Positions 5,149-59,215 of a stretch of 64,000 bases of DNA are shown here, piece after piece. This DNA is from Ceratodon purpureus. Taxonomy: Eukaryota > Streptophyta > Bryopsida > Pseudoditrichales > Ditrichaceae. The position numbers and the translations under genes are program-made. The notes under the pieces are model-generated. The model had not been told where the DNA came from and did not search any database. It saw only the letters and a program-made list of their open reading frames with translations. Location of the stretch: assembly GCA_014871385.1 (NCBI GenBank), contig CM026428.1, forward strand, positions 9,530,772 through 9,594,771, in the 5' to 3' direction. The first letter of the stretch is position 1. Each line of letters starts with the position of its first letter.

Positions 5149-8100
5149 GTAAGCAATCCACCTATATATGAGCTTTATGAAGAATAATCTACATAATTCT
5201 TTCACTATCATTATTCTAAAAAAGTGTTTTAATTTAAAAATTTAAAAACAAATCTTGGTAGGCTTCTATTTGTTGTTTTTATTTTCCGGTGCACTTTATA
5301 ATTTTTCTTTTGTTATTTTTATACGATCCAAATCAAGTCTAGGCCTATTTTTTTTTATTATTATATAAATTTATAGTTGCTTGTTAAATCATGATTATGT
5401 TTTGGTACCAAAGGTGCTAATGAAATATGGTGGCCTATAGGCCACCGCATAATGAAGTTGGGAAATAATAAAAATAGTTTATAATTTTAAAGATGAAAAA
5501 AATTTAAATATGCATATAAGATTGGAGCAATTTAAAGACCGAAATTAATTCTAAATAATTATAATTTTAAATTTAATAAGACTCTTAATTAAAATTATTG
5601 TTTAATCGAATAAATTTGAAGATGCTTTTAATTTGAAATTTTATTTGGAGTTGAGTTTAGACTGAAAAAAGAATTGAAGATGAATTTAATTCAAGAATAA
5701 TCTAAAAATTTCATTTAATAAAAAAAAACTCACTATTTTTTAAAATAATCATTTATAATCGATACTCCTATATGTATACATATTTATCTTAGAGAAATCA
5801 TAGCACGTTTCATATTATTAACTGTTGTAATCTAAAAATAACTTCATAAATGCAAAGTTGAAAATCTATATAAAAATCTATTTAAAGTTAAAAATTATAT
5901 ACAAATGTTGAAAATTACAAGTTATGTTACAACTTTTGAAAATTTCCTTTTGATAACAACAATCATTCAAAAAACATTTCTCAACGTGATCGGGACTAAC
6001 CATCAGGATATTTTTATATGGCTGATTTTCTTTTCCTAATCCAAAGAACTTTCATCATTGATTTTTAAATTATAGATGAATTAGTATTAGAAATATTGTT
6101 TTATTTCTTAGCCATTAAAGGTCATTTTTACTGATTTTTTGCTAAAAAACAAAAATCGAGAAATTTTGTTTTTAATGGATAAACCTTAATTTTTTTTTTT
6201 TTAAAAATATTTGTTTATTAAGGACCGAATGTGCTATGGTGTTATGGCATCATTTTCCATTGTAAGTAGTCAATGTAGCTCCTTCTTGATGAAATTTTCA
6301 ATACAAAGGTGAAATGATGCCTCCTAAATAGTGTTCATAACTTCATATTGCCTTAAAAGGACATTTTTTAGAAAATAAATTAATCTATCTACATGCATGT
6401 GCTAAATTTTTGCAGTTATTTGACATTGAAAATAGACCCATACGATGAATTTTTCTTGGAGTCTTTTTGGATAGAGACCACCTAGGATTTCTTCTCCATA
6501 ATGGATGTTAAGCAAAAGAATATTTGTAGATTTTTAAATTTTCTTTTTCCAATTCTGAAAGGTTTTACCAAATTATATGACCAAGTATATATATGATTGT
6601 ATGAAAATTTTAAAATTTTGTTATTCTCCTATATTTTGCTCTTAGTTTGAACATCCTGACTATGCAAGAGTTGTGTAGATGCCTTTACTTACAAATTGCA
6701 ATCCAATTTATACATGGAAAGTTTGCCTCCACTCCTAAAATTTCAACTAATTCAATGTGACTCACGTACTACTACGTAATGTATTATTAAATATTGTATA
6801 ACATACAAGCTTACAAAATTCAATTATTTCATATTCAAAATTCTTTGCCCACAACTCCCACTCTGTATAATTTCTCACCTCATCTGCATTTTCAAACATT
6901 ATGGAACAAATTCCCTTCACCACACAGGTGGACCCTGCGCACAGCTAATTAATTAATTAATCCACGTGGTTGGAAATTTTGGGGACATAGTTTAATTGGT
7001 TCATTGGTCTAGTGATATGCATTTTTTTGTTGGCTTGTTTTTCCAAATGTCCCTTTGAAAAACTGCCTTACACTACTAATTTAAGTGTTTCTTTTTAACA
7101 TTGGTTTTGAGGCCATGAAATGTTTACCAATTAAAGTGGATCTCTCATGTTATCAATCATTTATTACAACTGTTGATCAACTGTTGATGTACAAAATTAG
7201 TCATTGGGTTCAATATGGATTGTATGTTGCTAATTTTACAACTTAAAATGCCTTGTTAGAATTTTTGAATTTGATATTTTGTTTTTATTTTTTAATTTGC
7301 ACAATCCTATCCAAAGTATATCTAGTAGCGCACACTTATTATCACTTATGGTGATTCATCAAAAAAATTGAAAACCTTTCTATGTTTAGATTAAGAATTC
7401 TAAAATCAACAAGTCCTTGCATTTAGCAATGCTACATAATAAGAAATATTGTTGTTTGTGAATCAAGAATATCAAATTGGACATATATTAAAATAAAGAG
7501 ACTTTTTTAAACAATAATCTAGTAAATAATCTATAGTACTGTAGATTATTTGCAACGAATATTGAACTACTAGTTTGTTGCATGTCTCGGAGGCTTGTTC
7601 TTTGATTTTTCCATCCTTAGTTTGTAGCAAATGCATCCCCTAGAACATGTAAGATTTCATCCCCTATATGTCTATCAATACTAAATTAGATTTCACATGG
7701 TGTAATATGTCTTTATCTTAGGGATCAAATCTTGTTTGTACTCACTACATCTATAAATCTACCCAATAAAAGTGACTTATCAAAACTTCAATAACCGCGG
7801 GACAACGAGCCTTTCAAAAACTTAAAGCACATGTTTCAAGTCAAACAATTATAAAAAATATGACCATTCACTTTTAGCACATCTTTCTTTTTGGATTTTA
7901 CATTGACCTTCAAAATTGCCCTTATATTTTGTGAAAAGCAAACCCCACCTTATTGCATACTCATTTTTCCATGGTTTCAAAAACATTTTTGATATGTTCT
8001 TTTTAGGATTTGTTCATAATACAAACAAGTATATAAAATTGTTGAAGAAAAAGTTCTCAAATGTATAAGAAATATTTAAGAAACATTTGATGGTGGCTTC

Positions 8101-9307
8101 ACAATTTGGTCATCATGTAAAAAAATTCTGAAAATGTTTGTAAGTTTGCCAATTATGTCAAAAGTTTTGCTTTTGTCAAAGTTGTTGAAATGACAACAAT
8201 TACGACTATGACTTCAAAAATGCAAAATGCATCCAGTCCTTTAACAATTAACTAATGTTGTAACAAGATCATTAGATTTTATCATTATAATAACAATAGA
8301 GATACTCAGCTATTTAAAAGAGTAAATACTATTATCTTCATCTCCACCATTCGTGGCACAAAATGCATTACTCCATTCTAGAGATGACTGATGCAATTCA
8401 TATTAAAAATATTGGAGATTCTTAGACACTGTACAACTATCCAAGCCTTACTATGGTAACTTTGTGAGAAACTTCTTCTTAACCCTAAAGCATCAACTCA
8501 ACAATTTTGGTATGCTTTAAGGTTCGGTCAGGCTCCCTATGAGTCAAATTTTCCTGGATGTGGCTTTAACTTTAGCACATGAATTTTCATATCTTTCTAA
8601 CAAGACCATTCATGCTTCAAAATTCCTCATACTTTAGGAGATATCCGCAGTCAAAATTTGAAAACACTATTTGGGCATGCTGAAATCTGCCCAAAACTGC
8701 AGTATATGCTCAAAATCTGCCCAAAATTAATAAGATCACGGAAACTTCAAAAATTCACCAAAAATTGAGTTTTTGCTTTTTTCAAGTTTTATTTTTTCTA
8801 AATGTAAATAAAATTTGAAGGCATGATCTCACCGCTTGGATTTTCAATCCAATATTTCTTCGTATGCCTTTCTTACTATCAGAGACCAGCCTTTGCATTT
8901 GAATTTCAACATACCTCAATGTGAAAATCCAAGCACTTCTTTAGGTTTTGTAGGTCATATGAGGGGAAAAATTCCATGGACATATTCCTAACTCATCTGG
9001 GAACAAGAATTTGAAGAGCCTCACATCTAGTTTGTTTTTGAAATTGGTTTTTTTGGCTTACGAAATACTTGAAACCCATTTTGCAACAAGGGAAAAAACT
9101 TTTCTTTCAACTTAAAACGTTATGATCTCACAAACGGTAAGGATTTTGAATCTAATATTTGGGGTACATATACATGTACAAGTAAGGTACTAGATCCTTT
9201 GATTACTTTCCTCAAAATACATCAAAACCTAAAAACCTACACCTTGTATTGAAAAAGTCTAATTTTGAGGATTTTTGGCAGTTTTGAGGCCTTTCAACTT
9301 TAGGGGT
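5149..9307. other. AT-rich gene-poor DNA
   Basis: There is no supported coding sequence. The stretch holds long A/T runs and short direct duplications. From about 8480 to 9300 the composition becomes less extreme and contains repeated phrases such as 'AAATCTGCCCAAAA', suggesting old repeat sequence leading into the MITE that follows. Confidence 0.5.
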
Positions 9308-43937: not shown

Positions 43938-46900
43938 TTAGACACTCCTCTCTAGGAACTCGTCAATCTTGACCAGTAAAAGAGATTCGTCGTCTAGTAG
44001 AGCATCTTCACGGCGCCATACAAAATGTTCCTTAGTGTCATGAATTGCCAAGTGCATGATAAGAGTACTACTGCCCATGTTTTCTTTCGTCAGGTCTAGT
44101 TTTGAGACGATATCCATGGCGGATTGCCTGACTGATCCTGAAGGTGAGATATCCTTGACGTTCAGGGCCATGGATCTTTCTCGGTAGCATTTTCTTCGTA
44201 CAGTCTGCCACATACGTTAATGTCTATAAGAGCCAACTACTTTCTAAATATGTGGTTATAAAATATATACTAACAGCTGCGAAAATGAATGGAAGGTGTG
44301 ACAAGTTCAAGCTCTTTAATGTTCTTTTCAATATGTTACTTAATTTACCTCAAATATGAAACCTCTGAGGCTAGCAAAGTAGCCTGGTACTCACCTGGTG
44401 TATGTCACGAAGTATTTCAACTTGTCCATGATTCAAAAATCCTCCCTTCAGTAGTCCCAGGAAGAAATCAACTGTACCAACTGTGACATGTTGGTTTGCC
44501 CTAAAGCTCTCAACAGCAGCTGCGAGAACCTCTGGATTGAATACCGCCTGCAACCAATTGTACGGAGGAGAAATGCACAACATGGCCGAAAGCATGGAAG
44601 CAGAATAATGGATTTCTTCTTTTTCCATGACATTCACTTCTGTCTGAGCCAGAGAGAACATCAGTTCTTCTGCAACCTTTTTGTACCAAGGACCCCTTGC
44701 AATGGCCTCCTGTTGTTTGGGATTCAAGAAAGTCGTTGCCAGCAGCCTAATCATACATATGCAAGCATTCTTTCTCAACAAGCCATTGCTTCCTATTGCT
44801 GCACCTTGCAGAACTAGTACCACACTTCTCAGATAGCCCACAGAGCATTCAGCGAGACTGCCTTGAAATTCGAACTTCCCGTCGCTATCCGTTAGATGTG
44901 ACAGAATTTCAACAAGGCAAGAGGATGTCAAAGTTTTCTGCATGGAATGCGTGTTGAAACAGAGGAGCTGGCATAACTGTTGACAAGAGATTCTGGACGA
45001 ATAATCCTTCAGAGTCTTTTTGGAGTCGTCTTTCGAAAAGATGCGGCCAGCCCTATCATCCGTAAATGCAGTTCCGTTGTAAACACTGCACTTCCAGGCA
45101 CATCTAGATTGAGTATCTTCAAAATTAGTCACTATGTTGCATGGATTGGTAACCTAGTCATGGAATGAAACAAGATGTATCCTAGGAGCGACAGAATTTC
45201 GTATTGCTTACCTTCTCAGCCATAGAACATGAAACAAAAGGGAGGCGCTCAAGGTCACGCCGTCATCCGAGTCGATGTCCATAGTGACCAACGTGGACCC
45301 TTTCTGCGAAGCGTTCAAGATGTTCTGTTCAAAAATATCTCGAAGATCCTTACTCATACATATCTTCCTGGCTGCCTCTTGAAGTGTGGGGATCCAAGTA
45401 GAGTTATGCATAATCAGCGAAACAAGGTTAACCAGGGGTACATCAGAGGTATGTATAATGTCTCGCTTGTCCAGTTGCAACAGTAAGAGTTTCACCGCCT
45501 GCATCACAAGCCAGCTGCAGAGTAAGTGCTCATAAACACAAGACATGGTCATGTTTTGATTAATGAAAGTAAATCTGGCATAAAAGCATATCACTAAAAG
45601 TTGATACATGATGATTAGTGTGTAGAATGTTTAAAGATGGCCAGATTCAATATAACTGCCCCTTTTCAATATAATCCTCCTCGTGGGCATACTGGGAGCA
45701 AGGATTCAAACAGGAGAAACTCGTTCCAGCTGCGAATTGAGTTGCCGCACGTACCTGGTTTGCAATGTCCGTCCAGGCACCCTCATCCATCACAGCCATC
45801 GATTCATCGAGGATGAGAAGCAGTTGAAAGAGTAACTCCACACACGACGTAACTGTAGCTTGAGGTGCCTTAGAACCTTGCAAAAGAATGAAACGCCTCA
45901 AGGTGCTCACTACGCCATGACCGTGAAATTTCTTTGCAAGGTTCCAGTTTTGTCTGATAATGCTTGAAAGTCCTGTTGCAACGATCCTAATTTCATCCAC
46001 AAGGTGCCTCTCAACTACGTCGAGGAACAGAGACATAGTAACCACGGTCACGTGATCGTCCTCATGAACCAGCTGCGCTATTGTTGCATGAACCTCTAAA
46101 CGATCAGATTCCAGATGCCTCAGGAGTAGGTCTTTGCTGATTGAAAATAGACTTTCCTTTTTAACAATCCACTTCAGTGCAGGCGTTGGCAACTCAAAAT
46201 CAAAAGAGCCACTTCTGTAAGCTGCTTGTAGGATGTCAAGCATGATACTTTCAGCCTTCATACTTCGAAATCGACTGTCTGGCATTATGTCTTCTTGTAC
46301 GTCAATAAACAGGATGAAAAACTGCTTTAAAAGTAAAGAGCCAAACGGGGTGGCAAGCAGCGAGGATGAGGCGTTCACGAGAAGATGTTGTTCGAGGGAG
46401 CTGAGTAACTGGTTACTGTCCACAAGCCTGCAGCAGGCAACCACAATAGGACCCTTATATTGGCTGCTGAAGTAACAACTTTCAATGCAAAAACGTCCAG
46501 CTTCGACATTTTTTTCCTTCATACTGCAGGTGCAATCTTCTCCTTGTTTTTACACCTACACATGAACGGCTGGGGAAAGAAGGTTCATTTATGCACTTTT
46601 AGATTCTGCGGGATTGGTGTTCTTATACTAATAGAACTGATAAGAATTCTCAAATATCCTCGAGCGACAATTTGGAATTTGAGACCCAAACTAAATCAAT
46701 TAATGGAGGTTGGGATGCACTAAGGTTGTAAGCATAACCTGTCACCATATTCAATCGCAGTGAACATGAGGGCAATGATTGCTTGATGAGCAGCAATAAC
46801 ATGCATGTCCTCATTGCTTCTCTGTTCAAGTAAAACGAGTAAGCCTTCAACGTCAGCCGGTAAGTGAAGTAAAACATCCTGGATGAGGTCCCCACACAAA

Positions 46901-49656
46901 TAGATCCCATTTATCACCGTGCTGATTACGCCATACACATTCCGTTTCAGATTCTCCGAGGGACATTTTGACATACTCTCAAATGCCATGCTGATCAATC
47001 GCTTCGAGATGAGAGTCCTTGCAAATGCAGCTGTCTTGCTAGCATCTCCAATTTGTACCATGCTTTTGACAGTACTGAAGAAAGTATTGATTGTTTCTTC
47101 GTCTGTAATGCTTTCCCAGGTAGCCGTCAACACGGGAAGCACTCCCAAGAGGAAATGATTCATCAAAAAATCTGTCAAACCGGTGAATTGCTCACAGGCA
47201 GAATTCTGCTGAACCGAGAAGAGATATGTCTCCTGGAGTAGATGTGCAGCAGATATTAGGCCATTGTGTTGACTTGCGTAAACAGGGTCTGCAATAATGC
47301 AATCAATCAAGGCTGACACGCAGTCTTGAAGTATTGGACAAATAGAAGTGATGTTAGAGCATGAAGGGGCTCTCAACAAAGTTGTAAGAGTTCCACAAGT
47401 AGTATTAAGTCCCTCTGGCGAGAGACCAAAGCCAAGGATGTCTGAAACAGCGTGGTCTTTTATCACGCTCTTGTAGTGCTGGAAAGATTTCTTCAAGAGG
47501 TTCATCAAGTGTTCGGCGCGAACCACACTTACTACTCCGGGACGATCAGCAATTCCTGCAGCTATTATGGTTAGAGTGTCTTTTTGCAAAGTTCCAAAAG
47601 CTGAACTAAAGGAATGTTCAAGTACACGCAAAAGTGGTTCAAGTCCGAGACTGAAGTGGTCCGAGAATGTGGGAAAGGCCATCGAAAGTGTCACAAGCGT
47701 CGGAATGGCACTGGTGGCGACTGCGTCAAGATCCTCTGCGATCCAAGACGCATTAGGTTTAGTGCTATTCTCGCTGTGCATAGAACGAGATGATATGGCT
47801 CTGATTATAACAATACCTTCTTTGAGTAAGATAAGAACCTCAAAGCTTTCAATGCCAGTACTCTAGTCCAATCCTCTCATCTGACCTAACTTGGCAGTTG
47901 ATTCTCTAAGCCTCGTCTGTATGAAGAACAGAAGTCCAATGCATCACGTACCTGATACTCTGAGGACCTCAAATATGTAGTCAGTTAACCCTTCCTTGAC
48001 AAGAGAATAAAGCTCCTCGCTGATGTCAAGACTCGTCGGGCAAACCTGGTCGATTAGCACAAAGGATTTGATCTGGACCTGAGTATTGGAGGATAGGAGC
48101 GTCGCTTTCATAGCCTCTGAGAACTGTTCCACAAACGATGCCCCTGTATGACATACCGGCGCTGTCTTCTGGGAGTCGCTAGTATCACATTTCTCCTGGA
48201 AGGAAGCTGTTGACAAGCTGATATTGAAGACAGATGCTCGGGCTAGTGAAATTAACAAATCTGCCATCAAAACACAGGAGTCCGTGCACACTGTAAGGAG
48301 CCTGAAATACACAGCCGTCATTTTACATTGACAAGTGCTTGGCAATGCATAGCGAATGCAAATGGCAGGCTTCGATAACGCCAAAAATCACCAGTTGTTC
48401 ACTGATGCATTCACAGGAATTGTGCGACAGACGAACAACTCCCAGACTTCTGACATTGTCCTATTGTATGTAGTCACGGTGACTTCACGATTAAATCAAA
48501 AGATCCCGATCGTGCAAGGCATATTATATGCGATTAAGCCAGGAGGGTTTTAGAGTGCACCTAAGCTCTTTGTCCGAACTTCATCATTTTGTGTTTTCAC
48601 CAAGGCACGTATCGCGTGGTATACCAGCGAGGGGCAAGATTCAGCTAACAGTTGAATTCCACCTTCCAAGGAACTCAACTTGAATAGAATGAAGAATATA
48701 TTCACTTCTATCTCATCACTGCACATAGTATTACAGCGTAATCCATAAGATCCATGGCATTCACTTCAGTTCCAGATATTCAAGATTCCTTTATTTTTGT
48801 TAGCTTCAAAAGAATCAATTACTGCATGCTCATGTTCTAAAAAACCCGACATACATTATGATACTCACGTTGGAAGCGTAAGAGCTTTAACGAAATTCTC
48901 AACACAGCTTGGTTGGGACTTGATTGCATGAGGTATGTCACTCTTCTGGTGGCAGTGCAGCTCAAGGAGGAGGCTTAGAGCATGCACCTGCATTCAGAAA
49001 GACAGCTTGCCGTCAGATAGCCTACGGAACTCTATACTTCTCAGCGTCCATTGGTCATAGTCTAGTTGTCGAGCAACAATCTCCTGAATGCAGTACCACT
49101 ATCAAAGTCTCGAATCAAATTATACCTATCTGCCTTTGAAATACTTAATTCTGAAATCCAGTATTCTTAATAACACTAACACACAGGAGTTGCGATAACT
49201 CACACTGAAGAGGTGTCCATGCTTCCAAGGTGCAGTCTCCGAACTCGACAAATGCGAACAAACACTCAGCATCAAATCTTGGAGCAGCGTGTCGTCATTC
49301 TCTAGTGCCAGTTTGCAAATAGAAACCATCACATCTATAATTCCAGTCGCGAGACCTTCGTCTTCATAGAAGAAAATTGCTTCCGCCAAAGGAGCGGCAA
49401 GAAATTTCAGGCGCTTTTGCATCAAAGAGCCACAAAATTCCGAATCTGCCAGTAGTTCGGAAATCTCGGTTAGAGCTTTCGCTCTGCGAACAACGAGCGA
49501 CGACGGTGATGTGATAATCTCCACAAAGCATTCAAGACAGAAGGCTCCACCCTGGCTCGTGCGAACCAGCATAACTGACGCGTGCTCCCGTGAGCAAGTC
49601 ATGTACAGTGCAGATCGACCGTCACTTTGCTCACTGTCTTCCCACCTTCGCCCCAT
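43938..49656 (-). CDS. PRD1: PRD1 (MEI1-like), meiotic DNA double-strand-break formation
   Basis: About 1359 residues; Arabidopsis PRD1 is ~1330. The family is needed, with SPO11 and partners, for programmed breaks that start meiotic recombination in the nucleus. Exons on the minus strand are 49656-49204, 48987-48869, 48301-47948, 47860-46739, 46523-45755, 45498-45212, 45103-44395 and 44204-43938. The N-terminus contains C-x3-H...C-x2-C (C21, H25, C40, C43) in TCSREHASVMLVRTSQGGAFCLECF, which matches the opening of plant PRD1 as I know it. The rest is helical HEAT/ARM-like repeats with phrases typical of the family (YIFEVLRVSG, RPGVVSVVRAEHL, CVELLFQLLLILD). The exon 3 donor is the weaker GTGATG, not CAGGTACGT, because only it keeps the frame into exon 4; this is the least certain junction. 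The start is the first ATG; TTG lies upstream. Confidence 0.85.
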
Positions 49657-49739
49657 TGCGATCAACTTTATGAATTGGAAAACAGAATCCTACCTACACC
49701 TTCTTCGTGCCTAAGAGACTACCTCTGCTTGAGCCGAAA

Positions 49740-51010
49740 TAGAGCCGAAATAGAACCAAACTCGGTTCTGCTCCCCGGAAGGTTGACATAAGAAATCCTT
49801 AGTACAAAAATCCTAAGAAACGTTAAAAATTCTGTGTATCTTCAAGAGCCAGTAATTCGAGAGCGCTCGTCTTCCGCAACTATTACACCTATTCTGGCGA
49901 GATTCTAACCGAAGAATGATTCCAAACTCTCCGAAAGGAAAAGATCGTAGACAGGTACTCTAATCAAAGGATGTACCGAGTACCGGCAAAAAGAGCATGA
50001 AGAAGTGAATACCATTGCGATCAACTAATAAGTGAGATGGACAAAATAACAGTCTACCTGCACCTTCCGACATAAACCGAGATTGTGCTAAACTCAGCTT
50101 CTACTCCTCAGCAGTTCAACATTCAGGAATCCTCGGTACAGAAAACCTTGAAGAAACAACAGAAATACTAGGTCTCATCAAAAACCAGCAACCGCAAGAT
50201 TGCTCCTCCTCCGAAACAGCACCATAATCTAACAGTCTTCTCAGCCTCCCGCCACTATAATCAACTACAAGAATCGTTACCACGACTCCATTAACTAAAA
50301 GAGTGCTAAACTAAGCCCCCAATCCTCGCCAGCTCCATATTCAGAAATCCTTCAAACACGAAACTCTTGATCTCGTCAAGAACCAGCAACGCGAGAGCGC
50401 ACTTCTTCTTCCACAACATCACAATTCCAGTACCCCTGTTGCGCCGATCTCCAAACCAATGAATGATCTCCAACGTCCGTGATACAATGAGCGGAGCAAA
50501 AGATCGTAAAAGCTAATGCACCGAGGACTGAGCTTCGCTTCCAGTACCGATCTTCAAGCAACCTTGATTCCTCAAGAACATCACCTTCCGTCTGCCTAAA
50601 TCACTACTACTCCATAAACCAAAACCTACACTCCTACTCCTCGGCAGTTTCAAATCCAAAAACCTCAAAGAAACAAGAAGCCTCTAGCTAGGTCTCGACA
50701 AGAACCAGCAATGCAAGAGCGCTCTCCTTCTCCTCCTCGCAACGTCACATTTCCGGTACCCTGCCGCGCCGACCTCCGCACTAAAGAATGACCTCCAACG
50801 CTCCGTGCTCCAACAATTAGAAAGAAAGTTTGCAGGAAAAAATTACACCGAGAAACTGAGCTTCCAGACTGAGCGACCTCCAGCCAACCTTGAATTGGAT
50901 AACATGTCAAAACCTAGCCTGTCTTCTTCCACGCACTCGCCATTGCAGTCTCCCTGCTGCGCTGAGATCCGAAGCGAAGAAAGCTTTCCAATGCGCTGCG
51001 ACGAGTTACA
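49740..51010. repeat. diverged repeat array upstream of PRD1
   Basis: Several phrases recur in order: 'AAGAACCAGCAACGCGAGAGCGC'-like blocks, then 'CTTCTTCCRCAAC', 'CCTGYTGCGCCGA' and 'GAATGATCTCCAACG'. Anchors fall near 49868, 50203, 50404, 50724 and 50920, spacings of about 335, 201, 320 and 196 bp. That suggests a ~520-bp higher-order unit built from two sub-units. The copies are strongly diverged. The array sits between the PRD1 start and the possible plus-strand gene beyond it. Confidence 0.5.
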
Positions 51011-51541
51011 TGGAATTGTGAGAAGTGTTGCAGCGAGCATTGAGCTGCAGAAGCCATCTCCCCCGCAATTCTTGTTACCGAAGCTTTGGAGGTGCATTCA
51101 TAAACCCGTCACGGTATGCCAAATGGGGGGTATCTTTGTAGAGCGTAGATTTCAAGAGCACAATTGTTCGGTTCTAGGTAGATGGTGTTGGTTTTGAGGT
51201 TCTGTGACGGTCTTGTGTCCATGTGGCTTGTGTCTTGTGTCCATGTGGCTTGTGTCTTGTGTCCATGTGGCTTGTGTCTTGTGTCCATGTGTTGGTTTCT
51301 TCGAGTTTTTTAGGTGAAATTTGTAAAGGATCAGCCCGCATTTGAATCCTTTTGGATGGATGTCGTGCATGGTGGCGTCAATTTCTCATCCCTCATGAAC
51401 CTGAGTTTCTATCGTTTAGATGTTCATCTAAGGTTTGTGGCTCTGGTCGTTTTTCTTGCTCTATTCCTTACGTCTTGTCAATGCCTTAAAGATAGTCATT
51501 TTCTTCTATATGCGCTTTCGAACACTTCAATTGTTAATTGA
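50904..51541 (+). CDS. possible two-exon small protein, unknown function
   Basis: Exon 1 (50904-51113) reads MSKPSLSSSTHSPLQSP... then RCDELHGIVRSVAASIELQKP and ends at CACG^GTATGCC. Exon 2 starts after TTTTTTAG at 51314 in the same phase and reads VKFVKDQPAFESFWMDVVHGGVNFSSLMNLS, then a hydrophobic segment (FVALVVFLALFLTSC) to the stop, about 145 residues in all. The amino-acid content looks more coding than neighbouring frames. I recognise no family, and the hydrophobic tail may be untranslated sequence after a missed donor. It lies head-to-head with PRD1, about 1.25 kb apart. Confidence 0.3.
51211..51292 (+). repeat. 22-bp minisatellite
   Basis: Four near-identical copies of TCTTGTGTCCATGTGGCTTG plus two bases, the last truncated. 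If the small gene above is real, the array lies in its intron. Confidence 0.9.
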
Positions 51542-53539
51542 GAGGTTTGAAACACCTGCTCAATTTTTATATTCTTCATCTTAGCCGAATTTCGAAGCAT
51601 TCATTCTTCTGGATTTATGCATACTAAAGGGATTTAGGTTCTTAATTGGATAAACAGATAAAGATTAGAATGCAAAGTAGCCAATATTCCTGTTGTTTTT
51701 ACCAATGAATTTTGTGAAACACTTCATTGTTGGGATTTGGAGATTAGTTAATGGCGTAACACAGATGGCGCTAAACTCTGTTTACACATAGATGAATGAA
51801 GTTTTTTGAAATAGTATTCTTTCAAATTTTTATTGAATAGATAGTTGGATGAAATAGATGTTCCTTGTAGAACTTTGCATAATAAAAAAATGTATAGTAC
51901 TACTATTTCACTGATGAGTATGATGACCTCTTTCAACCATATATGGAGACAAGTAATGAAGAGCTAAAGCAAAAATCAAGAAAGTCACAACCACTATCTA
52001 AAGAAATTGAAGTCAAGTCAAGTTTGCCTTAGGGCCCAATATCTTGTGCATTTGTTTAAGAGGAATTAAAAAAATGAGTTGAAAATTTGTTTGTGTGTTA
52101 AAGAAGTGTGTGCATGTTGAGATGTATATGTATGTAGAGACTTGAGAATGAATGTATGTGCGTATCAAAAGATATAACATTTAATGTTATCATTTTAGAA
52201 TTTAGAGATTAAAGTCTTCTAAAGAGAACATAATGAGAGAGTGATTATCTATTAAAAAAGTGTGTGTCTTTGAAGATATAGAATTGTGACATTTCAATAT
52301 AAGATTAAAGAATTTTCAAAGTGATAAGTTTAAAGCTACGTTGCAGAATATAGAGACTAATTTGGATTAGAGTAGGAATAAGAGGGAGATAATGGAGGTT
52401 AATTTATCTCTCTGTAAATGGAGCTTAGCACCTCCTAAGTTGCGCCCCACCTCACCACTAAATCCAAGTTTGACTCAATTTATTACTAAAAATGGATCAA
52501 ATCTTGTCTATCAATTATTTTATTTGAAATAAAAATATTCTTAAAAGATTCAAATATTCTAATTATATTTTCTGAACTTACTATTTTAGAATCCAATCTT
52601 TGTTCTTTTCTTTTGTTCTTTGCTCTCTGTCCTTTGATCACAACCCACATAAAGGGTTCTCTATATTTGACATATGCAATCAAATCCGCAATCAAATCCG
52701 CAATCACTTCAATCAATGGCCTCGCAAAATATTTCTACAATGTATACACATTTAGTGTAACAAATTAAATAATCCATATACAAAATCCTCCAATTGCTGG
52801 AGTGAAATGTATTAAACTCAATTACCTAATCTATACAATATAATTTTAACAAATGTAGGCTCATAGAACTTGTTGCAAATGATGGTAGAAGAACCGACAT
52901 CAAACACACAACTTGCTGAATATCTACATGCTTATATAATATTATTGGCCAATTTATACACATTACTATATAGTTTGATAAATGGTATACTTGTGATAAA
53001 AAATAGAAAACATGTAATAAATAAATGATTATTAAAACACATATAATGAGATATCTAATGACAACAAATGACAAATATTGGCAATCATTTTCGATTAATT
53101 TTACGTCTATCCAACCGAAAACAACTAACCACTATTCTTGGCATCATAAAATTTCCAGATCCATATCCAGCTTGTGGCTTGACCTATCGATAATGAAAGA
53201 GACCCTGACTCTGTCATTGTTGATTAACAAATGGAGGCTCAAGGTTACAAACTTGAGCTTGAGCCTTGAAATCTATAAGGATATCGATAACCATCTGTAC
53301 TAGGTTGTGGCAGTTGAAAGTGAAGATATGGAAAAGCACAATTTTGCTTATTAGAAGCCACTTGATTATTTTGAAAAGATTGTAGCTGTTGAATCATAGA
53401 TTACGGACGCAACTGACATGTAGCCAAATCCTATTTGAAGGCTTCTTGTTGTTGAGTAGACTTTGCCAAAGAATCTCGCAATATACTATTCTCCCTCCGA
53501 AGAAGAGCTAAATTCTAATGCATGGCAAATCCGGTTCTA
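51542..53539. other. AT-rich intergenic DNA
   Basis: No supported gene. GTGTGTTAAAGAAGTGTGTGCATG-like phrases recur loosely around 52090-52280. Frames at 52486-52716 and 52826-53303 show no family resemblance. Confidence 0.5.
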
Positions 53540-55935
53540 CTAGAAGCTTATGAAACCTTTAGAGGTACAACAGAACTAAGAGCACCTTCCTCTTCAAAGT
53601 TAAACTGTGACCAGAATCTCATCTCTTCATCTACAAGAGCAACGTCAGCAGATGGTGTCACACGCATCATGGTAGTTAGAGTACTTGATGGTGTTACAGT
53701 CGGCATTACAATTGGTGTTGCAGCCAGCATTGCAATCGGCGTTGAATGCGAAGTGAAACCAACCCGAGATGGATCCACTGGAATAGCAACAAAAGGTCCC
53801 TCAATAGCTAATATATATAAAAGGAGCAACAAAAGCTGGTATCGAAGGAGCTTGGTAGCCAGCAGAAATAAGTTGTGGTTCTCCCGTTTCTTTGATAGCA
53901 AATACAGGACGAGAATCAAGAAACCTAGTAACTCTGAAATCCAACCTTGATTCTTCTCCATGATCTCCATCGATAATCTCACTAACTTTAGTGGTTTTTC
54001 CAGCTTGTGCATAATTGTTACTAGCAGCATGCCACTGAGAAACATCTACTTCAAACTGCTTATAGAAATCGCTGGCTCCACCATGACGTGCCAAAGCCTA
54101 TCCCGTTCTTGCTTCTAATGCAGTAATCCAATTGTACCTTTCAATAATTGCTAGCATTTTGGTGATTAGAATTAACTGCAATTGCCTTCAAAGGACATTT
54201 AGCTACACACATCCTGGTGATTGTAGTTACTGTCCTACTCTTGTTTGTGTAATCACCTTCAAGACCAATAGGAAGTGCCATGTCCCTCAAAAAGTGTCTT
54301 AAAGCAGATTCACCCAAATTAACATGTGACTTGAATTAGATGATATCCTTTAAATGATGAATAGGTGACAAAAAAAGGTGTCCAGAAATCAAAGCCTTCG
54401 GCATATGAGCAATCGAGACCCTAAAGGTGTAGATCACATTTGGATCGTGGAAGTAAACTGGCTGCCTGAAATGCTTGGGCTGATACTTGATTAATGACGG
54501 TTTGTGATTTTTAGATGTTGTCTCATCGTACCTACAACATCAAAACAAATTGCAATTAAGAAACTATGCAACAAGCGAGCAAATCAGCAGATCCTGAAGC
54601 AATTTATGAACCGAAAAAATAAACAACAATTGATGCTATTGGTAGAATAACTTACCTCAAAACCTCCTGACCTTGTTCGTTAGTTCCAAGACAAAAGTCC
54701 ACAACTCGCAAATTGTACAACTTATTGTTCCCTCTAATCAGGTATATTGTCGTGCAATACCATACAAAGCATCTCTGAACACCAGAAGGAACATAGCCTA
54801 ATTATTTGGATAAGCCAAAATTCTTCTCTCATCTTCTTTGGTAAAATAATCATCCTTACCTGTGGCTTTATTAGCTTCGGCCATTATCAATTTCTTCATA
54901 GCTAAGATAACATGCTTGTTTGTCCTACCGAAAAACGGATGTGCGTGCACAAGAAATTGCTCTTCGTTGACTCTTGTAGAATCAATGCGATCTTTCTGAA
55001 CACTTCATAGTATTCAATTAAATCCCTTGTATATTTGCATGACCAATTGGCTAGGATAATGCAAGCCATTTTTCTTTTTCAAACAAAAAAAGATCTTGCA
55101 CAGCAATTCACACAGCTCTATCAAAGAAATTTCTTCCAATGGAACAAATGTATCAAAAATACAAGCAATCCTCCAATGGTTATATTTGTTTCTAACCGAC
55201 AAATTGTTCTTAGTTGTCCCAGTATTCTTGGAGCTACGCATATCTTTATCAAAAGCAACTTTGTCGAACATATCAAGCTTGACGTGCACATTTGCCAAGA
55301 AATTGATAAGCTGGTGATCTTATAGTGGCATAGCTCATCATTCAAACCAACTTTCATTCAAGCCGTCAAGCCTCTTCACTAACCTAAGACTCGAGAGCAG
55401 AAACTGTGTGTTTCCAGTTCCTCGACAAATCTCCACTTCAACTTGCTAGTATCTTGTTCACCTGAGCCATCTGCTCGAGGTCAAGCGCTAAATCACACTA
55501 GAGGAAAACCGAGGCTTAGGGGACGTTAAAACGCGTCAAAGATGACACGGGCCCAGACTATACAAAATTAGTGTGGAAATCTGGTCCAAAGTGACGTAGT
55601 GGACGTCATGTAGGTTTAACGTGCGAATGTCACAATTGACACGGCTTTGACGCGAAATAAATTTACGTCACTTTGGATGTTACGAGTGACGTAGCAGCGT
55701 CAAGAGAGACAGAGAAGGTAGATTGGGCAGTGTAGAAAAGTAACTTTTAAAGGGGTTTTTTACCTCGCAGTGATTTTCAAATGGCTAAGTACAGTAATAT
55801 CCAAAGTCCGCACGTCACTTTTAACATAGATGGGTGTCACGGATGTGTTTCTATGTTAAATTGTGTTAAAAGTGACGTTATTAGGAATCCGACGTGGAAT
55901 GCATTTCTGATGTGTCACACTCACGTGGAAGCTAT

Positions 55936-56236
55936 GGCTGACATGGACTCTAAGGTTCGACCTGGTCAACATCCCGGGGGGTGTCATTAGTGACGCGTTT
56001 GTTTCCAGTGACATAAAATCGCGTCACATATATGTTTCAAAAAACACATTGACTCAGCTGACGTGTCACGTGTGCGGATAATCTACGGCTGACATGGCGT
56101 CTAGGGTTGACCTAGTCAACATTCTAGGGGTGTCAATAGTGACGCGCGCGTTTCCAGTGACACAAAAATGCGTCAAATATGTGTTTCAAGAAACATATTG
56201 AATCAGCTGACGTGTCACGTGTGCGGAAACATTCAT
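55936..56236. repeat. 151-bp tandem duplication inside the CACTA element
   Basis: Two copies beginning GGCTGACATGG at 55936 and 56087 each run through GTGACGCG, CCAGTGACA, GCGTCA and ATTGAxTCAGCTGACGTGTC. They are about 85% identical by eye. Confidence 0.8.
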
Positions 56237-56714
56237 CTATGAAGGTCTTAGATTAGGGCTTTGAGCCTTGGTAGGGTTAGGGTAAGCCGCCACTTTGGCG
56301 GCTTCTTATCTTGTATTTGAGGGCTTGTTTTCAAGCTTTTTGTGTTTTCTTCCTACTCCATGGAGTGTCTCTCATTGTTTTCCCTATCAGTCCTTGTTTC
56401 TTGTCCAAGTAAAGTGAGATTTGAGGAGATTGTAGATCTCTTGTAGGGCTTTCCAATGGTAGTAAGCACGTCCAATTCAGAGTTATAGGGAGTGAGATAT
56501 CGCCTCCCGAAGATAGGGTTGTCAAAGGAGTGCGGCTGGAGGAAGGGTCTCGGATTTTTAGCAATCAGTCCTAGGATTTTTATCGTATGCTTCTGAGATT
56601 TTGAGGGTAGATGTACAATCAACTTAGCTTTCCAAAAATCTAAGGCACACCTTAAACCAAGCTAGGATGGAGTAACGGCAACCTATAATCTGAAAGGTAC
56701 TTCAATAAAATCCG

Positions 56715-56737
56715 AGGGGGGGGGGGGGAGGGGGTTT
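56715..56737. repeat. guanine tract in the CACTA interior
   Basis: Roughly 14 consecutive G, then AGGGGG. It may form a quadruplex on the plus strand, and its length may be a sequencing or assembly approximation. Confidence 0.7.
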
Positions 56738-57892
56738 CTTGTTCTCCATGTTCTTCTTGTCTCCATTCCTCTCTTGTTCCTTTCTTCATGTGATCTTGTT
56801 CCATTAACTTCCTTGTAATCAAATGCCACCTAAATCTTTACTCAAGTGTGATTGAATGATGTGTTGCTATGAACTCACCATGAGCACAATGATGTGGGTT
56901 GTGTAGATTAAGAAGGATCCAGCATGAGCAGCCCCTTACGTTACGTCATCCTACGTCTAAAGACGTTTCCCGAAACGAGTTAAATTATGTGACATATGTG
57001 TTTATCAGCGTCAAGTTGAACACTACATTGTGTTTCTTTTTACACAACATTCAAATTGAATGCGTCACTTTTGACGTGGCAAACATCATCCTACGTCTAA
57101 AGACGTTTCCGTAAACGCATTAAAATAAGTGACGCTTGTGTTTATCAGCGTCAAACAGCGTCAAATTTAACGTCCGGGACGCATCTATCAAACAACCTCA
57201 AAAACGCGTCAAAACTGACGTCCGTGACGTACTTCCAAAAAACCCCACTACGTCAAAAGTAACAGTAAATAACGTCACTTTTAACAAACGCGTCGCACAT
57301 ATATGCCCAGTCCACGATCATGCCACGTGTCAGCATATGAGCCGTTGAAAATCTGATCGCCATATCAGAATCTTTTGCCACTTCAGCAAATTTTTCATCC
57401 ATGACGTGGTATCCACGGTGTCTCCCGCGAAACCGGGAAACGCCCACGTGGCAAAAAAGTTACTCTCCGAGTTACTGACCGCAGGTAAATTCACAAAACA
57501 GTGTCGCGTCAACGAGCGTCAAAGGAAAGAGGCTGATGACGCTCCATGACACGACACGTCAAGATTGATTTGATTCTCCAGACGCAGTGGCACTTTTTTG
57601 CGTCAAAAAAAAAAACACGTCAAAACGCGTTAAACGCTCTTAAAAAACGCGTCAAAACGCGTCACCAAAATCCCTCTTTTCTTCTAGTGTCATTACCTTT
57701 GCTCACTAGATCATTATCGCAAAATACAGATTCAAACATTGGCTCATCAATAATCGAAAGTTCACTCACACTAAGGTCTACTCTAGTTGCATCTTCCTCT
57801 GTAATTTCCAAAATGATTGCATGTGCCATGTTTTCGGAAGTAGTACAATTATCCACAACGTCAATTGTAGAGAATTCAGCAAATTCCATGTT

Positions 57893-59215
57893 TGTCTTGC
57901 ACGCCTACACTCTATCACTCTATAAATAAGAACCTTTGTCAATAGGTTCTTTGACAATCTTGGAATCACTGACAACTTGCATACAATAATTTGAATATGA
58001 AATCAAATTATAATTATAATCTAATTAGTGCCAATATTATAATGACGAATAGAAATCAACGACAGACAACGAACACTGGAAACAACACCAACACAATCAC
58101 GGATGGAAATTTGTTTCCCTGTCCTTGCTCGTTTTGGAATAGGGCTGAAAGAAAATAAACATGAGGTGCTACCTCCAAATACTTGTCAAAATTGTCATCC
58201 AGATCGATCCTTAAATAAAAAGAACAAAGGAGGTGCTTGAAGTTGATTCCTAACTAAATTCATATTTTGTTTGCCACCGCGGCCGCAAAGTTTTGATCGA
58301 GGGCTACGGCAAGAAGACAATTCCGAGATCACTGACAAACGCAAGTTACAAATTAAATTCAAATATAATTTGGAATCACTGACATCCCGCGTCTGCTACA
58401 ATTCTTCTTGTAGTCCATGTACAATGTACGGGAAAAGGAACAATCGCATGCAAGCGCAATCAGAAACTACAATTGACAACAAATACAAACTAAACAGAGC
58501 TACTCACAAATTTGAATTCCTATCGCGAAGCTCAACAACACCAAACATTGCCCAATGAATTTGTAAAAAAGGCGGGTTACAAATTAAATTCGAATTTCAA
58601 ACAAAGAAAAAATCCTCGTGGACCTCACAACGTGTTGAACCACTAATGCGGGCACGGCTCAACACAATATGAAACCGATTACGTTTGGTAATCATTTTTA
58701 GGAGACCGGCTATCACTTGAGACCCGTTGCCATCATGTTGACCTCATCCTGACGCACCGGTTCTCAACCAATATAGTTGGTCTCCTAAAAGCGATTACCT
58801 AATACATAATTTTCTAATTTCTACATTTACTAGTTTTAGAATTATTTTAGGGTAAACCAGATACTGTACGGTGCTACGGTATGATACTAGGTGACCTATA
58901 TCTAGCAATCCAGTTTCCGTTGCGAAACTTGAATATCCGGACTCCGCCAGCTCAGATCGCACAAGGGCTCGAGCAACTCTCCGGCCCTTTATCCCGTGAA
59001 GCTCGCCCTGCCGCCCCGTCACCCCCGAACCCCTCCTAACGAAGTTTGAACTACTCCCGAAGCCCTAGTTCCGATCGACCAAGTTCCCCACTCTACTCTC
59101 ACCTCCCCATTCCAACCTTTCACTTTCTCGATTCCGCCAACCTCAGCGCTCTCGCAGCTCATCTCCAAATCCGCGAGCCCCTCCACCTAGCTCTCGATCC
59201 ATCTCCGCTACTCAG
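57893..59215. other. intergenic: probable 5' side of the Crypton remnant, then CAS promoter
   Basis: TTGGAATCACTGACA occurs near 57959 and 58370, and GTTACAAATTAAATTC near 58345 and 58576, so short direct duplications are present. The 95-codon plus frame at 58271-58558 is not recognised. From about 58880 the sequence turns GC- and CT-rich, fitting the promoter and leader of the exportin gene. Confidence 0.4.
58687..58799. repeat. 113-bp imperfect foldback
   Basis: The arms GGTAATCATTTTTAGGAGACC and GGTCTCCTAAAAGCGATTACC are inverted copies with two differences. The inner part also pairs weakly (GAGACCCG with CGGTTCTC). It may be a very small MITE or a hairpin; no clear target duplication is seen. 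Confidence 0.6.

Follow-up and report, generated by a model that had tools for sequence, protein, structure and literature searches.

The window analysed here, a stretch of 64,000 nucleotides from the moss Ceratodon purpureus (contig C8, positions 9530772-9594771; C1 to C14 are contig labels and L0xx the labels of the loci compared), carries on its minus strand the remains of a tyrosine recombinase gene that has been split by a CACTA transposon. When a family profile built from 12 relatives was run on all 2088 stop-to-stop window fragments of at least 20 amino acids, five fragments came out above threshold (E 9e-26 to 2e-13), all on the minus strand, collinear and in the order of the protein, the sixth-best fragment reaching only E 0.13. 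This bears out the initial annotation, which had described pieces of such an enzyme lying in order on that strand. The relatives in the profile were recruited with the piece at 54141-54335, so that the match of this piece is not independent; those of the other four are.

Read along the minus strand, the recombinase begins with a piece of the core-binding (N-terminal DNA-binding) domain at 55017..55319 (profile E 2.8e-17), with recognised similarity from 55256 and 58 and 60% identity to its best places on C6 and C10. The second part of this domain follows past two in-frame stops (54801..55004, E 5e-18), and the start of the catalytic domain with the box I arginine (YLIRGNNKLYNL) lies in a different frame at 54655..54801 (E 2e-13). 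An intron of the form GTAAGT...TTGTAG (54532..54655), at a position that is likewise interrupted in L030 and L023, separates this piece from the one with the SKNH lysine (54339..54539, E 9e-26), and beyond a further in-frame stop comes the piece recruited as seed (54144..54335, E 1.4e-25), in which GH reads NH. Searches by tblastn add a piece in a shifted frame that contains the catalytic tyrosine block (IIERYNW) and the region downstream of it (53837..54160, L030 exon) as well as a C-terminal tail with four in-frame stops (53251..53790, L029 exon, 3.9e-20, and L030 exon); the similarity there is weaker, and 53251 is the lowest position at which the coding part can be recognised. Against the L029 and L030 exons the relic has eight in-frame stops inside the aligned blocks between 55256 and 53251, its frame shifts at about 54800 and about 54158 fall inside conserved blocks, and the NKSGR of the relatives reads NKSRT, so that the second arginine, that of box II, is lost. 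For these reasons the window copy is dead and can no longer excise or insert.

At its 5' side the relic extends well past its coding part. The left end (58677..58805, minus strand) reads AATTAT|G-TATTAGGTAAT..., followed by a decayed terminal hairpin and then ACGTAATCGG; the hairpin arms at 58773-58802 and 58684-58713 are 83% complementary and form inverted repeat I1, the longest of 25 listed. Since the first 12 bases of the hairpin, GTATTAGGTAAT, are identical in the relic and L030, the left end is placed at 58804/58805. The limits given at first, 53540-57889, are too narrow on both sides: the tblastn similarity makes 53540 too short, and the relic spans about 58804 to at least 53251.

The nested element is a probably non-autonomous CACTA transposon of 2194 bp (55496..57689) with ends CACTAG...CTAGTG, assigned to its class by the CACTA...TAGTG ends and a 3-bp target-site duplication, TCA, found at 57690..57692 and 55493..55495. 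Its two ends are common to other copies: a genome search that returned 59 match rows from the best 40 of 455 candidates contains at least 11 other full-length copies (span 1-2194) at 91-97% identity, among the matches listed at least six at 96-97% and at least five at 91-92%. The element sits, as had been proposed, inside the N-terminal part of the coding sequence. The left flank (MEFAEF...VSKGND, 57690..57889, minus strand) matches the N-terminal open reading frames (ORFs) of L033 (3.5e-5; 6.5e-6 in a second search) and L035 (0.002), the values of 3.5e-5 and 0.002 being computed over a small set of loci, and in both loci these ORFs sit upstream of the recombinase exons; the right flank is homologous to recombinase exons from 55256 onward. 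The possibility that the flanks were unrelated sequences had been raised at the outset, and these matches indicate instead that both are parts of one gene. The frame ...NDLVSKGND runs over the single TCA into LALDLEQMAQVNKILAS and then meets a stop, a continuity that had been claimed and that is read from the window sequence itself; the 17 codons that keep the frame past the junction are without a homologue among the compared loci, and two peptides from the first 240 bases or so of the right flank (55495-55257) found only weak matches there outside the window, the best at 0.39. In a search with 53000-58600 as query, which may miss repeats, the listed matches extend at most 16 bases beyond the element ends, and the surroundings appear unrepeated at the DNA level. 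The insertion, thought at first to be datable, seems so only loosely, as the nearest CACTA copies are 96-97% identical.

Other copies of the recombinase, for which the same genome was to be searched, are numerous. Across 362,488,568 bases in 151 contigs a search with the 64-amino-acid piece 54141-54335 gives 40 places at E<=0.001, counting the window; the members are 40-69% identical to this piece, and 27 of the other 39 were taken for comparison. The core-binding piece gives 36 matches, a count that also takes in the window and in which some matches share a locus. Among nine aligned relatives, PF00589 (Phage_integrase) matches all nine (best 4.9e-8), PF12012 (DUF3504) four (best 1.4e-7), and PF25561, the QRICH1 domain, weakly matches the core-binding region in three (best 0.0089); PHROG integrase families match nine and seven of them. 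Genome-wide, PF00589 has 22 matches at E<=1, eight of them above cut-off, and PF12012 nine, two above cut-off, both of these loci also matching the family profile (8e-33 and 7e-27). A divergent recombinase branch above the DUF3504 cut-off is seen at L049 (C6:84561300-84562000) and L050 (C9:6561600-6562300), L049 keeping NKTGR, GH and a tyrosine. In the aligned relatives SK, NKxxR and GH are invariant (9/9 rows), the box I arginine is present in all six rows that cover its position, and the catalytic tyrosine in eight of the nine rows of alignment A1, the ninth stopping short of it. GH and the tyrosine follow the box II arginine at the same distances as in XerD.

That members of this family have moved is seen most clearly in family A, whose copies on C2, C5, C9 and C14 share 98.4-99.8% identity across 7.6-8.7 kb; the C14 copy lies on a small contig and may duplicate that on C9. 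Between their ends the copies measure 10,893 (C2), 10,899 (C5) and 11,492 bp (C9), and lengths between recognised ends are 6,015 bp in L027, 6,277 bp in L030 and 4,832 bp in L035. For the C2 copy, eight of ten rows in the search for empty sites span the joined flanks, the other two being the copy's own flanks, and of three aligned paralogous empty sites L041 and L043 read uninterrupted TTAC|GA(A/G)G, with additional bases at this point in L042. For the C5 copy, the best 40 of 1715 candidates all span the junction, with only 17-27 bases to the left of it, and the three paralogous empty sites aligned all read AATAA|AGTGG. If the element is written GTACTAG...GGCAACTAC, the C2 and C5 insertions add the element and nothing else. 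At these two sites family A has inserted exactly and with no net duplication of the target, which is the behaviour expected of a tyrosine recombinase. For the C2 copy a 4-bp duplication of the target, TACG, had been considered and was dropped in favour of exact insertion after the C5 empty site. The C2 and C9 copies carry TACG at either end, and the C2 empty site has it once; the C5 copy has TAAG and TACA at its ends. Both targets are themselves repeated. That of the C2 copy is multicopy, with three empty copies clustered in about 113 kb on C1 (C1:24540097-24652802), perhaps a local gene family, and that of the C5 copy is a high-copy repeat (L011:8657-9001, L031:5900-6245, L021:1575-1920) with at least 40 places at 96-98%.

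The ends recur across the family. A left end of the G-TAYTAG-GTA type is common to the window, L030, L035, L027, L044, L046 and family A, preceded before its G by TTAC, ATAA and CTAC (family A on C2, C5 and C9), CTAT (L030), TGAA (L027), CTAA (L035), TCAC (C4) and TTAT (window), and the C7 element has C in place of the G. Right ends of relatives read ...TAC or TAT; the sequence shared within families A, D, E and F ends at TAC or a few bases beyond, those of two further families were read by eye only, and of six cases read, five have G and one has A as the base that follows the right end. L030 and family A have imperfect inverted half sites, about 30 bp long, within the left end and at the right. 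A strict left-end pattern occurs at nine genome places (four in family A, two each in inverted pairs on C5 and C7, one on C4), as against none for the reversed control; it misses the window, L030 and L027, so that nine is a lower bound. In the C5 pair the left end lies in an inverted duplication that includes the flank, with arms 99.95% identical over 1.88 kb (L035:1-1883 and 7058-8940), and on C7 a recombinase-related left end is similarly duplicated (C7:2841215 and 2845320), with flanks identical over at least 200 bases; these are either real palindromes or assembly fold-backs.

The left end runs into an inverted repeat, and the hairpin unit, counted up to the next half site, has 142 bases in L030, L046, L044, L035 and family A (five of the six intact ones), 109 in L027 and 128 in the window. 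Compared with 100 mononucleotide shuffles of each sequence, eight hairpins fold at energies lower by 6.4 to 18.1 standard deviations, the smallest difference being that of the window (z -6.4), whose hairpin is decayed yet recognisable. Pairing was counted on the ungapped 142-base sequences in the register i+j=138, MAFFT having gapped the hairpins. Of 59 positions in this register 47 are paired in L035, 45-47 in family A and 27-29 in L030, L046 and L044, in which the inner stem is shifted by one and 38-41 of 59 pair at i+j=137. Only 38 of 60 hairpin positions are identical between L035 and family A; 39 of 59 are paired in both, and 23 of these have changed on both sides. The comparisons with L030 are weaker, with 23 positions paired in both throughout and 11 (family A), 6 (L035) or 0 (L044) changed on both sides. 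Pairing of the hairpin thus appears to outlast change of its sequence, most strongly between L035 and family A.

Family A and L020 also have a second ORF of 202-251 amino acids with a core-binding-like domain and without a catalytic domain, which matches the family profile at 9.6e-9 (L009) and 1e-16 (L020) and is found at 11 genome places, five of them at 97-100% identity to the query. Its product might, as a guess, be a regulator or a dominant-negative partner. An extra ORF of 216 amino acids near the left end of family A, on the opposite strand (L036:54-701), has no Pfam match at E<=0.1. The Pfam scans of ORFs took in 10 and 8, one of them in both and hence 17 distinct, a selection from the ORFs of the elements. 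Elsewhere in the window, positions 8629-9097 are 77% identical to L019:8246-8727 in an alignment of 483 bp and are apparently another dispersed repeat.

Taken together, these observations are best explained, with a probability that we put at about 0.82, if positions 53251-58805 of the minus strand are a dead DNA transposon of the Crypton type, later entered by a CACTA element, whose working relatives probably excise as circles and insert at a target TAN^R. Direct support comes from the homology of the pieces, their order, the intron, the left ends, the exact insertion of two family A copies, and the CACTA ends and duplication. On this account the element would consist of an intron-containing tyrosine recombinase gene, with core-binding and catalytic domains, behind a G-TAYTAG-GTA left end and a terminal hairpin. 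For its working relatives the most likely mode of excision is as a circle, which we infer from the established biology of tyrosine recombinases; the joined ends would form a dyad around a 7-bp overlap, as in CGGTTAC-GTATTAG-GTAACCG for L027 and more weakly in family A, and the circle junction predicted from the read ends of L027 is AGTCGGTTAC-GTATTAG-GTAACCGGTG. Recombination of this circle with a short TAN^R target, carried out by the recombinase, would leave a clean insertion and no net duplication of the target, and the hairpin may position or mask a half site. In the window copy, the 2.2-kb CACTA element, probably non-autonomous, later jumped into the N-terminal coding part.

Several points weigh against this account. 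None of the eight window pieces matches DUF3504 or Phage_integrase in Pfam at E<=1, and the initial assignment to DUF3504 and the recombinases holds by way of the relatives. PDB sequences gave no match to the family profile at E<=1, so that the family has no structural anchor. All nine rows of alignment A1 have a lysine (NKxxR) at the position of the box II histidine and so depart from the R-H-R-Y tetrad; a lysine at this position occurs in related enzymes. A right end for the relic, sought in 45000-53600 by terminal-repeat similarity, was rejected, its best score of 24 lying at chance level (19-30, maxima of 20 shuffles). The empty sites are those of family A rather than of the window copy or its nearest relatives, the recombinase activity and the circle of the relatives are predictions, and the Crypton assignment was made by profile affinity and published descriptions.

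Such points leave room for other origins. The relic could derive from a domesticated host gene that used a recombinase domain in the manner of ZMYM or QRICH1, was duplicated and then became a pseudogene. The window copy has no near-identical partner (its best relatives are at most 69% identical), the CACTA flanks match nothing else in the genome at the DNA level, long open frames are found in some relatives, and it is chiefly from host genes of animals that DUF3504 domains are known, as described in the accessible text of Kojima and Jurka 2011 (PMC3212892). This origin is nevertheless unlikely, as the window, L030 and L035 have the same kind of left end as family A, which has near-identical copies and empty sites, and as intact relatives keep the catalytic positions except for the box II histidine, whereas the animal DUF3504 genes have, by the same text, lost them. 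The initial label of Crypton/ZMYM-like probably holds in its first half, for a decayed copy of a Crypton-type transposon, rather than for a ZMYM-like domesticated gene.

A derivation from a tyrosine-recombinase retrotransposon of the DIRS or Ngaro type would account for the enzyme class and, as far as the available text of PMC3537659 goes, for a related N-terminal DNA-binding domain. We consider it very unlikely: no reverse transcriptase or RNase H was found in the 17 distinct ORFs scanned, L027 and L030, each complete from one recognised end to the other, showed in self-BLAST only the hairpin and internal repeats and no long terminal repeats, and the relatives have DUF3504 and weak QRICH1-domain affinity. 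Most improbable is a viral origin, with the enzyme as the integrase of a large DNA virus or of a virophage-like element that has become endogenous. Such agents may integrate by tyrosine recombinases, family A is 10.9 kb long with extra unassigned ORFs, and the second ORF of L020 has a sub-threshold match to Polyoma_VP2 (0.044), which was taken for chance; against this, 51 pattern matches in a scan of IMG/VR yielded no confirmed relative, and no capsid, polymerase or ATPase exceeded the cut-off among the scanned ORFs.

With the Crypton-type transposon as the preferred reading, the window relic itself is ordinary, and the family is interesting; its unusual traits are the hairpin, the box II lysine and, in some elements, the second ORF. 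The many relatives of the relic, some of them nearly identical to one another, mark where such elements begin, end and insert; if the account is true, complete copies with empty sites allow the rule by which a eukaryotic tyrosine-recombinase transposon integrates to be tested directly, and the second ORF is relevant to the origin of plant transcription factors from recombinase DNA-binding domains. A search of titles and visible abstracts in the open literature found no description of a land-plant Crypton, subscription journals, preprints and Repbase entries lying outside it. In their accessible parts, PMC4455052 notes that Repbase lists CryptonV, PMC11630846 describes Cryptons as comparatively rare without naming any from plants, and PMC2836005 and PMC9406493 give no further plant case; PMC8245426 has a Crypton class among the annotated transposons of Brassica napus, without description, which counts against novelty.

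Among known systems, Cryptons are the closest. In the accessible text of PMC3212892 they fall into four groups, CryptonF, S, A and I, with an R-H-R-Y tetrad and, in fungal and stramenopile groups, terminal repeats of 4-6 bp. The moss elements resemble them in having a tyrosine recombinase as the recognisable enzyme of a DNA element, in their DUF3504 affinity, perhaps in short terminal direct repeats (TACG in the C2 and C9 copies, but TAAG and TACA in C5) and in insertion without a DDE-type target duplication, as the two family A insertions show against their empty sites. They differ in their streptophyte host, absent from Table 1 of that paper, which has Cryptons from fungi, animals and stramenopiles and no plant (Chlamydomonas appears only in the species key of the tree). 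They differ further in the lysine that replaces the box II histidine, in the left-end hairpin unit with its recurrent length of 142 bases, in imperfect inverted half sites located within the left end and at the right one, in the second ORF with a core-binding domain alone that some elements carry, and in that no GCR1_C or C48 peptidase was found in the ORFs scanned by Pfam. With the DUF3504 host genes (ZMYM2-4, QRICH1, KCTD1, KIAA1958) they share the recombinase-derived domain and the weak PF25561 match, but those genes are domesticated and have, by the accessible text of PMC3212892, lost most catalytic residues, whereas the moss relatives keep most of them and have mobile members in the family. 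The ALOG/LSH proteins, a streptophyte family, derive from the DNA-binding domain of a DIRS1-type recombinase, as the available text of PMC3537659 has it. They are, like the product of the second ORF, a recombinase N-terminal DNA-binding domain without the catalytic domain; the second ORF (L009, L020) differs in having no ALOG match in Pfam, and the two strong ALOG-domain matches of the genome lie elsewhere, on C13 (best 1.6e-61). It is a tentative suggestion, which we hold to be rather less probable than not, that mosses harbour a distinct and recently mobile branch of tyrosine-recombinase transposons, with a left hairpin of nearly fixed length that compensatory changes preserve and whose folded form may be what is recognised or recombined, and with a stand-alone core-binding protein, a possible regulator, as a living parallel to the origin of ALOG proteins. 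The attC sites of integrons are recombination ends in which a long imperfect hairpin is conserved in structure rather than in sequence, and in this the moss hairpin resembles them, as an analogy only that does not imply single-strand recombination.

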